From assembly GCF_900104805.1 (NCBI RefSeq), contig NZ_LT629751.1, forward strand, positions 2,399,001-2,463,000: a DNA stretch of 64,000 nt, given 5' to 3'. Origin of the DNA: Pseudomonas oryzae. Its GTDB lineage: Bacteria > Pseudomonadota > Gammaproteobacteria > Pseudomonadales > Pseudomonadaceae. Position 1 is the stretch's first letter, and each line of letters begins with the position of its first letter. The notes under the pieces were generated by a model, which saw nothing but the letters and a program-made list of their open reading frames with translations, made no database searches and had not been told where the DNA came from. A program made the position numbers and the translations under genes. Shown one piece after another: positions 9,338 through 13,256 of the stretch.

Positions 9338-11053
9338 GCACAATAAAAAATGACCCCCTACCTCGTCACGAAATTCCAGGACACCACGCTCAGCGCCTTG
9401 ATCCGGGAGTGCTTTGGCTACGACTTCCTGGACATCTTCGACAAGGATCAGGTCAAGTACATCTACAACTACCTGAATTCGCTCGGCGCGGTGAGCATCC
9501 TGCTCGAACCTCGCTATACCGATCATGACTTCCTGGAGGACTACTCCCGGTACTACGTGAAGCGGTTCCAGAACGATGGCCAGGTATGTGGCCGACTGCA
9601 TTTCTTCAGCTGTCCAGTCGATCACAACTCGTTGGACAACCTGATGCTTGGCAGCGACAGCAGTCTGACCCGCGAGCATCTCCAAGAACACTACCTGGGC
9701 TTCGTTGTCATCAAACCCCTGAGCAAAACGTTCATCGGCAAAACCTGCCTGCGCGTGGGCGGCGATCAAGGAGAGGGCCCGGGCACCAAGAAGAAAATCT
9801 CCAAACGCTATGACGTGAACCTGTTCGGCGTAGAACTCCATGTGGCATCCATCGCCTTCCAAGAGCAAGACAAAGTGGTAGCCGCATGCGCCACCACGGC
9901 CATCTGGACAGCGCTGCATGCCCTGCCCGACCGAGACGTCAAACAAATCCCGTCGTGCAGTGAGATCACTATCGCAGCGCTGAACTACGTGGACGGCTCA
10001 AGCAACGGCTTTCCGAACAAGGAGCTGAGCCACAAACAGATTCAACGCTCGCTGGATGTCGAAGGGCTTCGCTACCACTCCACCACCCTCACCAAGCAAA
10101 CTTGCGACTGGTTTCAAAGCCTGGTCAGCGCACATACCGACAGCGGCTTACCCCTGATCCTGGCCGGCACCGTCTATGGGCCACCCTCCATAGAAATGGA
10201 CGATGAGGAGCTGGAGGCTGAGATCCGTGCACTGATGGCCGAAGAAGGCCTGATTGCTCTGGAGGGTGAACAGCCAGACGCTCCGGCTGCTGCGACCGGC
10301 CAAGCTGCCCAGGTGGGTGAAGATGACCTGACATCGTTGTGCCTGAAAGGCGGGCATGCCATCACCGTCGTCGGCTATGACTTCCGAGAGGGTAGTCAGT
10401 GGCTGTACGTCCATGATGATCGGCTGGGGCCTTACGCTCGTGCTGAGCTGATCGACGCCCAGTCGTTTCTGGATGCCCAGGCGGCAAACGGCTGCCCAGC
10501 TTCTGCGAGCATTCAGGCGTCATTGAGGCCTCGCTGGGCCTTGGCCTTCAGCCATCGAAATGAAGATGGCACGTGGCTACCACCGCACGAGATCCTGGTG
10601 CCCGACCTCAGCATCGTTCCCGCTGACAAGAAAGCACGTTTGCCCTTCCAGTATGCCTACGGGACGGCCATCTCTATCGCAGATCAGATTGAGGTCTGGA
10701 TGGACGCCATCTGCAACAACTCCGAGCTCACTCGGGAGCCACTCGAATTTTCGATCAAGCTCTCCTCCATTGCCCAGATCCGCAAGAGCGTACTGGGACG
10801 GCCCGTAGGGTACGCACCAGGAGATGAGCTACCCGCCGGTGAGGCCACCCCAGTGGCGACTGAGGCCATGATCGAACGCTGGGAAAGTGAAAAGCTGAGC
10901 TTCCTGACCAGCCCCATGGCGAGGCTGCAATGGGATATCGATCTTTACTGGGGTGATCGCAAGGTCTTCAAAGTGCTGCTGGATGCCACGGACATCCCGC
11001 TGGGTGATGCCATCTCGGCGATCTGATCTTGCCCAGCAGCCGTGGACACGGGT

Positions 11054-11914
11054 TTAAGCACTCATCCGAGCCTCGAAGGCTTCCGGGCTGATGTGTCCCA
11101 GCGTGCTGTGACGCCGCTGGCGGTTGTAGTCGACTTCGATGTATTCAAACACGGTTTCACGTATCTGGGCGCGGGTGCTGAAACGCTCACCGTGAATGCA
11201 CTCGACCTTCAGGCTGTGGAAGAAGCTCTCCGCACAGGCGTTGTCGTAGCAGTTGCCCTTGGCGCTCATGCTGCATCGCAGGTGATGGGTGCGGATCAGC
11301 TCCTGATAGACCAACGAACAGTACTGGCTGCCCCGGTCGCTATGCACGATCACGTCCTTGGGCTGCTTGCGCCGCCATAGAGCCATCCGCAGAGCATCGC
11401 AGGCCAGATCAGCCGTCATGCGCTCGCTCATGGCCCAGCCGATCACCATCCGTGAGTACAGGTCGATGATCACCGCCAGGTAGAGCCAGCCTTCCTCCGT
11501 GTACAGGTAGGTGATGTCGCCCACCCATTTCTGGTTCGGCGCAGCTGCCGTGAAGTCCTGTTTGAGCAGGTTCTCCGCCACCGGCAGCGAGTGCCGGGAA
11601 TTGGTAGTGGCCTTGAACTTCCTGGCCGCTCTGGCTCGTAGCCCCTGACGCTGCATCGAAGCGGCGACAGTTTTTCGATTGCAGGGCAGTCCCGTTTCCC
11701 GAAGATCGAGACAGAGTCGTGGCGCCCCGCTGCGGCCCTTGCGTGCGCCGTATGCCTGAGCCACCTGTCGATCCAGTTTGGCTTGCCGCTGGTGACGCTC
11801 CGACGGTTTGCGCGAGCACCATGCGTAGTAGCCGCTACGGGCTACGCCCAGCACTCTGCACATGGACTTCACCGGAAACTGCAGGGCATGCGTGCGCATG
11901 AAGGCGTACTTCAC
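11054..11914 (-). CDS. IS3-family transposase OrfB (DDE integrase core)
   Basis: A 286-residue rve-type integrase. An HTH_21-like N-terminal part (KSMCRVLGVARSGYYAW) precedes the DDE core: D in KWVGDITYLYT, D in VIVHSDRGSQYCS and E in NACAESFFHSLKVE. It begins (GTG) overlapping the orfA stop by four bases and is probably mostly made as an OrfAB fusion through a -1 slip on an A7G run in the end of orfA (about 11946-11953 on the complementary strand). Confidence 0.95.
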   Translation of the reverse strand: MKYAFMRTHALQFPVKSMCRVLGVARSGYYAWCSRKPSERHQRQAKLDRQVAQAYGARKGRSGAPRLCLDLRETGLPCNRKTVAASMQRQGLRARAARKFKATTNSRHSLPVAENLLKQDFTAAAPNQKWVGDITYLYTEEGWLYLAVIIDLYSRMVIGWAMSERMTADLACDALRMALWRRKQPKDVIVHSDRGSQYCSLVYQELIRTHHLRCSMSAKGNCYDNACAESFFHSLKVECIHGERFSTRAQIRETVFEYIEVDYNRQRRHSTLGHISPEAFEARMSA

Positions 11915-12210
11915 TTGAGGCTCTTGGCAAAGTACGCGGCGGCTTTTTTTACAATGGCCAGCTCCTCAGCTTGCTCGGCCAAGAGCCGCTTGAGTCGGGC
12001 GTTTTCGTCAGCCAGCGACTGCTCCCGCTCGCTGCTGGTCTGGTTCTGCTGCTGCTTGCTCCGCCAGCCATAGAGCTGGGAAGCATGGAGGCCAAGCTGT
12101 TCGGCAGCCTTGCTGACGCCAATCCGCTCGGCCAAGGCCAGTGCTTCGTCCTTGTAGGCTTGAGAGTGGCGGGTACGGGTTTGTTTCATCGAGCTTGCTT
12201 GCCTTGCCAT
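11911..12210 (-). CDS. IS3-family transposase OrfA (HTH protein)
   Basis: A 99-residue protein: HTH_Tnp_1 domain (KDEALALAERIGVSKAAEQLGLHASQLYGW), then a leucine-zipper-like helix (ENARLKRLLAEQAEELAIVKK). It binds the ends and regulates OrfB. An internal ATG at 12189 is an alternative start. Confidence 0.93.
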   Translation of the reverse strand: MARQASSMKQTRTRHSQAYKDEALALAERIGVSKAAEQLGLHASQLYGWRSKQQQNQTSSEREQSLADENARLKRLLAEQAEELAIVKKAAAYFAKSLK

Positions 12211-13256
12211 GGTTCACCTCGTTGCAGTTTATCGCTTAACGGGGTGTCCACTGGGGCCGGGCAAGATCAATCTATATCTATGACCTGCTATACGCCGAGC
12301 TTTTCCTGCGAGCACTCAAAGACCAGAAAACCAATGCCAGCTACGTCGACGAGGAGCATTTCTTCAGCTCGTTCCTCAAGACCCTGGCTCGCAGGGATGA
12401 AGACTACGAAAGTCACCTCAACAAGACCTACGGGGCCCTGCGGGCACCGAAATACGTCGATAAAACCGAGATCTCGGACAAGGGCGAGGGCGCTAACAAT
12501 ACAACGATCCATCGCTTCGATCCGCGTCAGGACGACCAATCACTGACGGTCCACTTCCAAGGCGTGATCGAAAGTGCGCAGACCAGGAACCTGATCTGGG
12601 CGATCGGTCGCGAAGGCAGCCTCTACGTAGCCGAAGATTTGAAGGAGCCCAAACAGGGCCATCCGAGCATGACGGGGCTGCAGGCCGCACGTATCGCAGG
12701 CGAGATGTGGTGGCGCACAGATGAACGAGGCAACTACTGGGGCGTGAACCATGGCTCAGGCCGGTACAGCTTCGATTACTCCGACCCGTCCGGACTCCTT
12801 CAGAACGCCATTACCAAAATCGGATCGTTCTTCCCTGGGGATCGCTTCAAGTCTGAGGAGGTGCGCCGAAAGGCGCTGGTCGAGGTCAAGGTCGAGCAGG
12901 CTGAAGAAGCCGCAGCTGAGCAGGCGCAGTGATTGTGTCCCAGGAAATGGTGTAACTGCGCCTGTCTATGTAGGCATCTTGACCGTAACAGTCTTCTTTT
13001 GGTCGACTTCAGACACCGACTCGTCCTACTGTGACGAACCCACATCCATGCTCAGGAAGGCTCGCCTGACCGACTGCAAATGACCGAGAGTGGGCCCCTG
13101 CTAATGCCTGACGGACGATCCAACCCACGGTGTTTGTTGACGGCGACTATCGAAGACTGGGGCGGCGACGGAAAGCGCCTAGTCCTGCCGGTGTAGTGGT
13201 CTACTGATCCCGGACACCGATTTAGGCGAAAATCATCGCCATTAGAGAGGTGTTCG

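Follow-up and report, generated by a model that had tools for sequence, protein, structure and literature searches.

A Pseudomonas oryzae peptidase gene broken by an IS3 element as part of a candidate two-gene toxin/inhibitor-type module

The question raised by this locus was what is encoded by a large gene interrupted by an insertion sequence (IS) of the IS3 family, and whether its product acts alone. The locus lies in a stretch of 64,000 nucleotides (nt) of the Pseudomonas oryzae genome (contig NZ_LT629751.1 of assembly GCF_900104805.1, positions 2,399,001 to 2,463,000 of the forward strand), hereafter the window, in which all positions given below are counted. A preliminary description, made from the letters of the window, had taken the gene for a defence or stress protease. 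This is recast here as a two-gene, toxin/inhibitor-like module. With a confidence just short of even, the broken gene and the small gene upstream of it are proposed to form a mobile phage-defence module, in which a small inhibitor bearing a conserved C-terminal tail would be paired with a C39-like protease, with an expression bias in the long class of the family. The basis of the defence reading is the pairing of the two genes in most loci, the tail, the catalytic triad, the intergenic hairpin, the carriage on plasmids and in prophages, and the defence-type neighbours.

A set of 80 homologue loci was taken (the best 80 of 101). The proteins of the long class measure 659-776 amino acids (aa; n=37) and carry a C-terminal module GHPSLTG..ARIAGE..SGRYS, and those of the short class mostly measure 503-549 aa (n=39 in the raw list, a count that takes in L058, which belongs to the long class and is cut off close to the end of its contig). 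The window gene belongs to the long class, which formed one group in the tree (Shimodaira-Hasegawa-like approximate likelihood ratio test, SH-aLRT, 99), this being a tree made with a quick method and a midpoint root, with several long branches and with truncated, open-ended and near-identical rows left out. The protein alignment A3 comprised 62 rows, both window pieces included, of which 61 reached the triad columns; truncated, open-ended and some near-identical rows were omitted, as were L003-L005.

The preliminary description had proposed that one gene was split by an IS3 element flanked by an ATC repeat, and the intact relatives, which run across the break, bear this out. The limits of the element (11024-12269), whose ends read TGATCTTGCCC.../...GGGCAAGATCA at 11024 and 12269, are firm because a full-length copy is found elsewhere in the same genome, aligned end to end with query bases 1-1246 at 88% identity; the sole further match in the genome is a 51-bp stretch. 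The open reading frame (ORF) 9350-11026 encodes 558 aa, and reading resumes at 12270 with 220 open codons, reaching 12932, so that 558 codons plus the 219 following the duplicated ATC give the 777-codon rejoined frame that had been described. In the homologue alignment, the 5′ piece stops and the 3′ piece starts at residue 553 of L039, to which the two pieces are 68% and 63% identical, respectively. The alignment of the C-terminal module (A5) comprised 20 homologues. Of the 31 rows of A3 that belong to the long class, not one ends at residue 558. The 29 short-class rows are distant (24-29% identity); 27 of them extend 35-58 residues past the break point, and the other two (L079 and L099) end 6-8 residues past it.

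Two of the earlier statements on the insertion are kept in a weaker form. That it was recent is suggested by just the intact ATC repeat and the open flanks. That it disabled the peptidase is likely rather than proven, as the truncated ORF retains the catalytic triad. The truncated product is probably inactive because it is predicted to lack the last core residues, which are kept in 27 of the 29 short-class rows, as well as the C-terminal module, and this copy of the module has probably been switched off by the insertion. The small gene, the hairpin and the triad codons survive in the window, with the peptidase gene truncated. Other truncated or split peptidase genes were seen at L075, L114 and L127, where the upstream small gene keeps its tail.

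The residue numbers Cys180, His336 and Asp356/357 given earlier are correct, and the conservation of these predicted catalytic positions is shown in Table 1. Two Gln residues are also kept in 61 of the 61 rows, and the order Gln-Cys-His-Asp matches that of C39-like papain enzymes. The Pfam family Peptidase_C39_2 (PF13529), of the papain-like clan, matched 18 of the 62 rows at E<=0.01, with a best E-value of 7.2e-7, and no match was found for the window 5′ part at E<=1. The plasmid homologue P0002, which is outside the 62 rows, reached 24.7 bits against a curated cut-off of 24, and its matched stretch (186-328) contains Cys197, His308 and Asp328. L014, L007 and L006 scored below the cut-off (23.4, 22.4 and 18.6 bits, respectively), and L003 (the same protein as L039), P0003, L019 and L016 gave no C39_2 match. 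Thus, the papain/C39-like assignment of the preliminary description is upheld by the motif order and a borderline Pfam match, but most rows lack that match, and the papain fold is a prediction. The likeness to Peptidase_C39_2 consists of the order and spacing of the Gln, Cys, His and Asp residues. In contrast to it, this family adds an N-terminal region of ~165 residues, a further core after the peptidase part, a regular small partner gene and, for long-class members, the SGRYS module.

The same parts are found in L119-L123, relatives of 993-1261 aa, together with long insertions and additional C-terminal regions; a clear small partner gene is missing there. The C-terminal module alone was found in 3 of 274 class genomes, own genome included. 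The other two genomes have it, in the form GHPxL..ARxGGE/D..SGRF, in different proteins, L143:1471-1821 (116 aa) and L144:961-2094 (377 aa), which are of unknown function and give no functional clue.

The preliminary description had noticed a small basic protein before the peptidase, which is indeed present, but had overlooked its role as the regular partner of the family. A small ORF with a matching C-terminus lies upstream of the peptidase in 69 of 85 loci, compared with 9 of 337 control genes (other genes in the same loci, searched with the same upstream pattern); the pattern was drawn from these same loci after viewing them, and near-identical copies and the gene fragment L008 are included. 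Several of the 16 loci missing the pattern carry close variants, e.g. ..EPMTL or ..DPMTI, and a clear tail was found in 5 of 17 further loci (L126, L127, L134, L135 and L136). Furthermore, when a profile of the small protein was run over 398 family genomes, all eight strong hits had the peptidase directly downstream. The small proteins have a median length of 57 aa, and their tails are of different types: the long class has TCSL or TYSL, much of the short class has P-hydrophobic-T-hydrophobic, and four Bacteroidota have VVQL or IVQL. These types follow the peptidase clades in the tree. At the DNA level, the window resembles L039 and L041 from 13 bp before the small gene to ~95 bp before the peptidase stop, and since these bounds fit the two genes, the small gene and the peptidase gene are taken as the unit.

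The ratio of nonsynonymous to synonymous substitution rates (dN/dS) of the small gene was 0.04-0.27 in 10 close pairs, which are not independent of each other. For the window gene it was 0.16 against L039 (dS 1.2) and 0.08 against L041 (dS 2.6, near saturation), and the values pooled over the close pairs were 0.21 for the body and 0.12 for the last 12 codons. Judging from these ratios, the small gene is protein-coding and not leader RNA alone, because they show purifying selection. In locus L071 (Proteus hauseri), the only row of A3 in which both catalytic residues are replaced, Cys and His are both Tyr, and the small protein ends in SKAYEA, the usual tail being gone; such a co-loss is as expected if the tail serves the active site. 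A test of coevolution between tail and peptidase was omitted as confounded by shared ancestry.

Between the two genes, a terminator scan hit the hairpin listed in Table 1, while shuffles of the 801-bp stretch gave 0.8 hits on average. Of the 43 long-class loci, a set that includes the window and near-identical copies, 40 have such a terminator-like hairpin, most often GCAGCC-loop-GGCTGC with a T-run behind it, compared with 40 of 860 shuffles. It sits 11-26 nt after the stop codon of the small gene, and compensatory changes were observed at 5 of its 9 pairs in 24 hand-picked loci. Moreover, Shine-Dalgarno-like sequences precede 23 of 39 small genes and only 6 of 36 long-class peptidase genes, counted at the first in-frame start after the T-run with 3 of the 39 loci omitted; in the window, such a sequence precedes the small gene and none precedes the peptidase gene. 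In its simplest reading, the small protein of the long class would be made in excess over the peptidase, because of the hairpin and the poor ribosome site, and the conserved hairpin of this class would set the stoichiometry of the two proteins.

Regarding distribution, a peptidase match was found in 22 of 398 phylum genomes and in 2 of 95 relatives (own genome counted in both), so the family is sparse. The module nevertheless ranges over many bacterial phyla, plus two contigs labelled archaeal (L104 and L111). Intact homologues covering both halves of the broken gene are those of L039 (Pseudomonas poae, 752 aa) and L041 (758 aa), of a P. aeruginosa plasmid (726 aa) and a Shewanella plasmid (719 aa), and of two proviral contigs (702 and 701 aa). 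Peptidase matches occurred in 4 of 72,556 plasmids. The pair of L007 is located in a P2 prophage, as the sole cargo between a P2 gpA-like gene and a portal gene. Near-identical segments of 8.5-16 kb are shared among differently named species; in particular, P. poae, P. helleri and an assembly bearing the name Stutzerimonas stutzeri share an 8.5-kb segment that includes the pair (97.8-99.7% identity), which points to recent movement or to a mislabelled assembly.

According to the toxin/inhibitor reading, the small protein would bind the peptidase and hold it inactive by placing the C-terminal tail in the active-site cleft or close to it, an inhibition suggested by the gene layout and by L071. 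In the long class, the terminator hairpin and the poor ribosome site would hold the peptidase output below that of the inhibitor. By analogy, infection may upset the balance by removing or modifying the inhibitor, and the freed protease would then cleave host or phage proteins. If confirmed, this would be a protease-based toxin/inhibitor type of defence, embodied in an apparently unnamed, widely scattered two-gene module that would join a papain-like protease effector to a partner with a strongly conserved tail.

Several observations weigh against this reading. As for the peptidase, the fold assignment rests on the motif order and the borderline Pfam match, 44 of the 62 rows have no C39_2 match at E<=0.01, among them L039, which is the closest relative, and both pieces from the window, and no solved structure was matched, the sequence and profile searches of the PDB being empty or at chance level. 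As for the partner, three weak small-protein hits (E 0.005-0.007) among the 398 family genomes have no adjoining peptidase, and 12 of the 17 further, mostly distant loci have, by eye, no clear small gene; loci of this kind include L119-L123, L125 and the short L132 and L133, which keep the Cys and Asp motifs. Tail and active site are lost together just once, and the triad is intact in at least six further tail deviants (L005, L083, L095, L097, L102 and L107). The frequency of the hairpin in the short class does not exceed background (2 of 39 loci vs. 27 of 780 shuffles). Among 50,697 phage records, no match was found for the large protein P0002 or for the small protein of L062. Finally, the PADLOC families matched were 85 among 122 neighbours and 9 among 119 control proteins, a comparison that is not clean, as families overlap, the counts are of families and not of proteins, and 25 are listed; the enrichment of defence genes is suggestive only.

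The rival that survives best, although it is unlikely, gives the small protein the part of substrate, cargo or activating adaptor: its conserved C-terminus would be cut by the peptidase, or it would present targets to that enzyme. The conserved tail could equally be a cleavage or recognition site, and L071, where tail loss goes with a dead active site, would suit a substrate no less than an inhibitor. However, the small gene coming first, together with the hairpin and poor ribosome site of the long class, fits restraint of the peptidase better. Decidedly doubtful is the proposal that the small ORF is a leader peptide, whose translation or arrest at the conserved C-terminus would decide passage through the terminator, i.e. 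a regulatory switch and not a partner. A conserved C-terminus with a covarying hairpin close behind its stop codon, as in the long class, is what it would lead one to expect, but most short-class small ORFs keep the tail with their hairpin at background, and the protein body is under purifying selection as well.

It is improbable that the peptidase serves bacterial ubiquitin-like conjugation as an accessory, e.g. as a protease for deconjugation or processing, rather than forming a system of its own. This proposal draws on the adjoining genes, since multiubiquitin, ThiF/E1-type (JAB-fused in some) and DUF6527 genes were found at 9, 12 and 11 of the 85 loci, respectively, yet multiubiquitin occurs in only 14 of the 398 phylum genomes. 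These cassette genes appear in both classes, in several phyla and in different orientations, and one representative per family was confirmed in Pfam. On the other hand, no such gene was present in the flank read at 73 of the 85 loci (some flanks being short), none of the 22 peptidase-bearing genomes has multiubiquitin, though ~0.8 would be expected by chance, and the pair is alone in the L007 prophage. Compared with what these cassettes encode, the small protein is probably too short for a ubiquitin-like domain. The link is repeated, not general, and offers a lead connecting proteases with bacterial ubiquitin-like systems. A recurring group consisting of a helix-turn-helix (HTH) + ImmA/IrrE-type pair, multiubiquitin, ThiF/E1-type and DUF6527 genes was seen in L004, L045, L046, L110, L115 and L116, where it lies next to the two-gene module, in varying orientation, both in Pseudomonas and in Bacteroidota.

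There is very little likelihood that the small protein is a modifier (a Pup- or ubiquitin-like tag whose conserved tail a transpeptidase would trim, transferring the remainder to targets), although this would explain both the conserved C-terminus and the recurrent ubiquitin-like cassettes nearby. Equally remote is an ordinary housekeeping C39 peptidase, or one processing ribosomally synthesised and post-translationally modified peptides (RiPPs), with no defence role: C39-like peptidases are best known from bacteriocin export, but the sparse distribution, the near-identical segments across species names, the plasmid and prophage carriage and the defence neighbours speak against it, and RiPP leader processing was rejected, a double glycine being present in only 1 of 81 small ORFs (among which L106 is probably not a partner gene), in an analysis where transporters were not searched for systematically.

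Among the known systems with which the proposed toxin/inhibitor module can be compared, type II toxin-antitoxin systems have a small first gene and an effector second, are mobile and are found in defence islands. The likeness lies in two adjacent, co-oriented genes with the small one first (in the 69 of 85 loci mentioned above), and the difference in the effector, which is protease-like here and mostly 500-780 aa long. In ToxIN, as set out in PMC5772629, the inhibitor element comes first, followed by a terminator and then by the effector gene, the inhibitor being in excess and the system anti-phage. A similar hairpin lies between the genes in nearly all long-class loci, with none above background in the short class; however, ToxI is an RNA and ToxN an RNase, while here two proteins are predicted, the effector being a putative peptidase. 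An RNA antitoxin (type III) was rejected, as the upstream gene is under protein-level purifying selection. The gpA-gpQ hotspot of P2 prophages carries defence cargo, according to PMC9122126, and the L007 pair occupies that same place, between the gpA and portal genes. By contrast, the word ‘protease’ is absent from the main text of PMC9122126, where the two mentions of ‘peptidase’ refer to the flanking gene of a Bacillus hotspot.

The preliminary description had recognised no named family, which agrees with the searches of Pfam, PADLOC, NCBIfam and PHROGs, run on the broken pieces as well as on intact homologues: apart from C39_2, they yielded only a PHROG without a name, matched by the small protein. 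For the small protein of the window (P0006), PADLOC and NCBIfam gave no match, Pfam not having been run on the small protein, and phrog_20797 (function not annotated) matched it with an E-value of 0.003 and the small protein of L062 with 8e-6. When PADLOC (2023) was run on L003, P0002, P0003, L006, L014 and P0006, a single hit appeared, that of L003 to Csx1/Csm6 (E 0.039). No description of the pair was found in a literature search whose scope left out most subscription journals, so that this absence is weak evidence. The module is apparently undescribed, PADLOC being of 2023 and a later or closed description being possible.

Table 1. Positions of the module, the insertion and the neighbouring features in the window.
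Feature	Position	Strand	Basis or remark
Small partner gene, 56 aa (P0006), C-terminus ..EMLAKTCSL	9123..9293	+	proposed inhibitor/antitoxin; Shine-Dalgarno-like sequence present
Intrinsic-terminator-like hairpin + T-run between small gene and peptidase	9309..9337	+	10-bp stem, -16.9 kcal/mol, z -5.6
5′ part of C39-like cysteine peptidase gene	9350..11023	+	558 codons; TGA in frame supplied by IS end
Codon of predicted catalytic Cys180	9887..9889	+	Cys in 60/61 aligned rows
Codon of predicted catalytic His336	10355..10357	+	His in 60/61 aligned rows
Codons of Asp356/Asp357	10415..10420	+	Asp in 61/61 rows at both places
Target-site duplication ATC, left copy	11021..11023	+	read from sequence
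IS3-family element, 1246 bp	11024..12269	-	OrfB 11054-11914, OrfA 11911-12210
Target-site duplication ATC, right copy	12270..12272	+	read from sequence
3′ part of peptidase gene	12273..12932	+	long-class C-terminal module IWAIG..GHPSMTG..ARIAGE..SGRYS; open frame, homologue alignment
RmrA (HTH + ImmA/IrrE metallopeptidase)	7247..8446	+	429 bits PADLOC, Peptidase_M78; outside conserved unit
RmrT-like partner of RmrA	6606..7250	+	81 bits PADLOC
GajA (Gabija)	4237..6252	-	801 bits PADLOC
GajB (Gabija)	2330..4234	-	762 bits PADLOC
IS66-family transposase adjoining Gabija genes	675-2207		among the insertion sequences bracketing the defence cluster
Putative orfA (second IS3 element)	13257-13550		putative only
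IS110-family transposase	13775-14800	-	346 bits NCBIfam
orfB (second IS3 element)	14852-15775		319 bits IS3

In the surroundings of the module, the Gabija-like and ImmA/IrrE pairs noted earlier were confirmed by PADLOC scores as GajA/GajB and RmrA/RmrT (Table 1). Three RmrA and three RmrT were found among the scanned neighbours, by position those of L050, L051 and L069. Nearby in other loci were a type III restriction enzyme (L072), an LmuB-like gene (L054) and GajB-like helicases (L057 and L068). Out of nine hand-chosen neighbours, four matched GajB-, restriction-modification- or LmuB-type models, two matched TniQ/RecD and three matched nothing. Finally, the window at 13257-15775 holds a second IS3-family element apparently split by an IS110-family element, and the defence cluster of the window is bracketed by insertion sequences.

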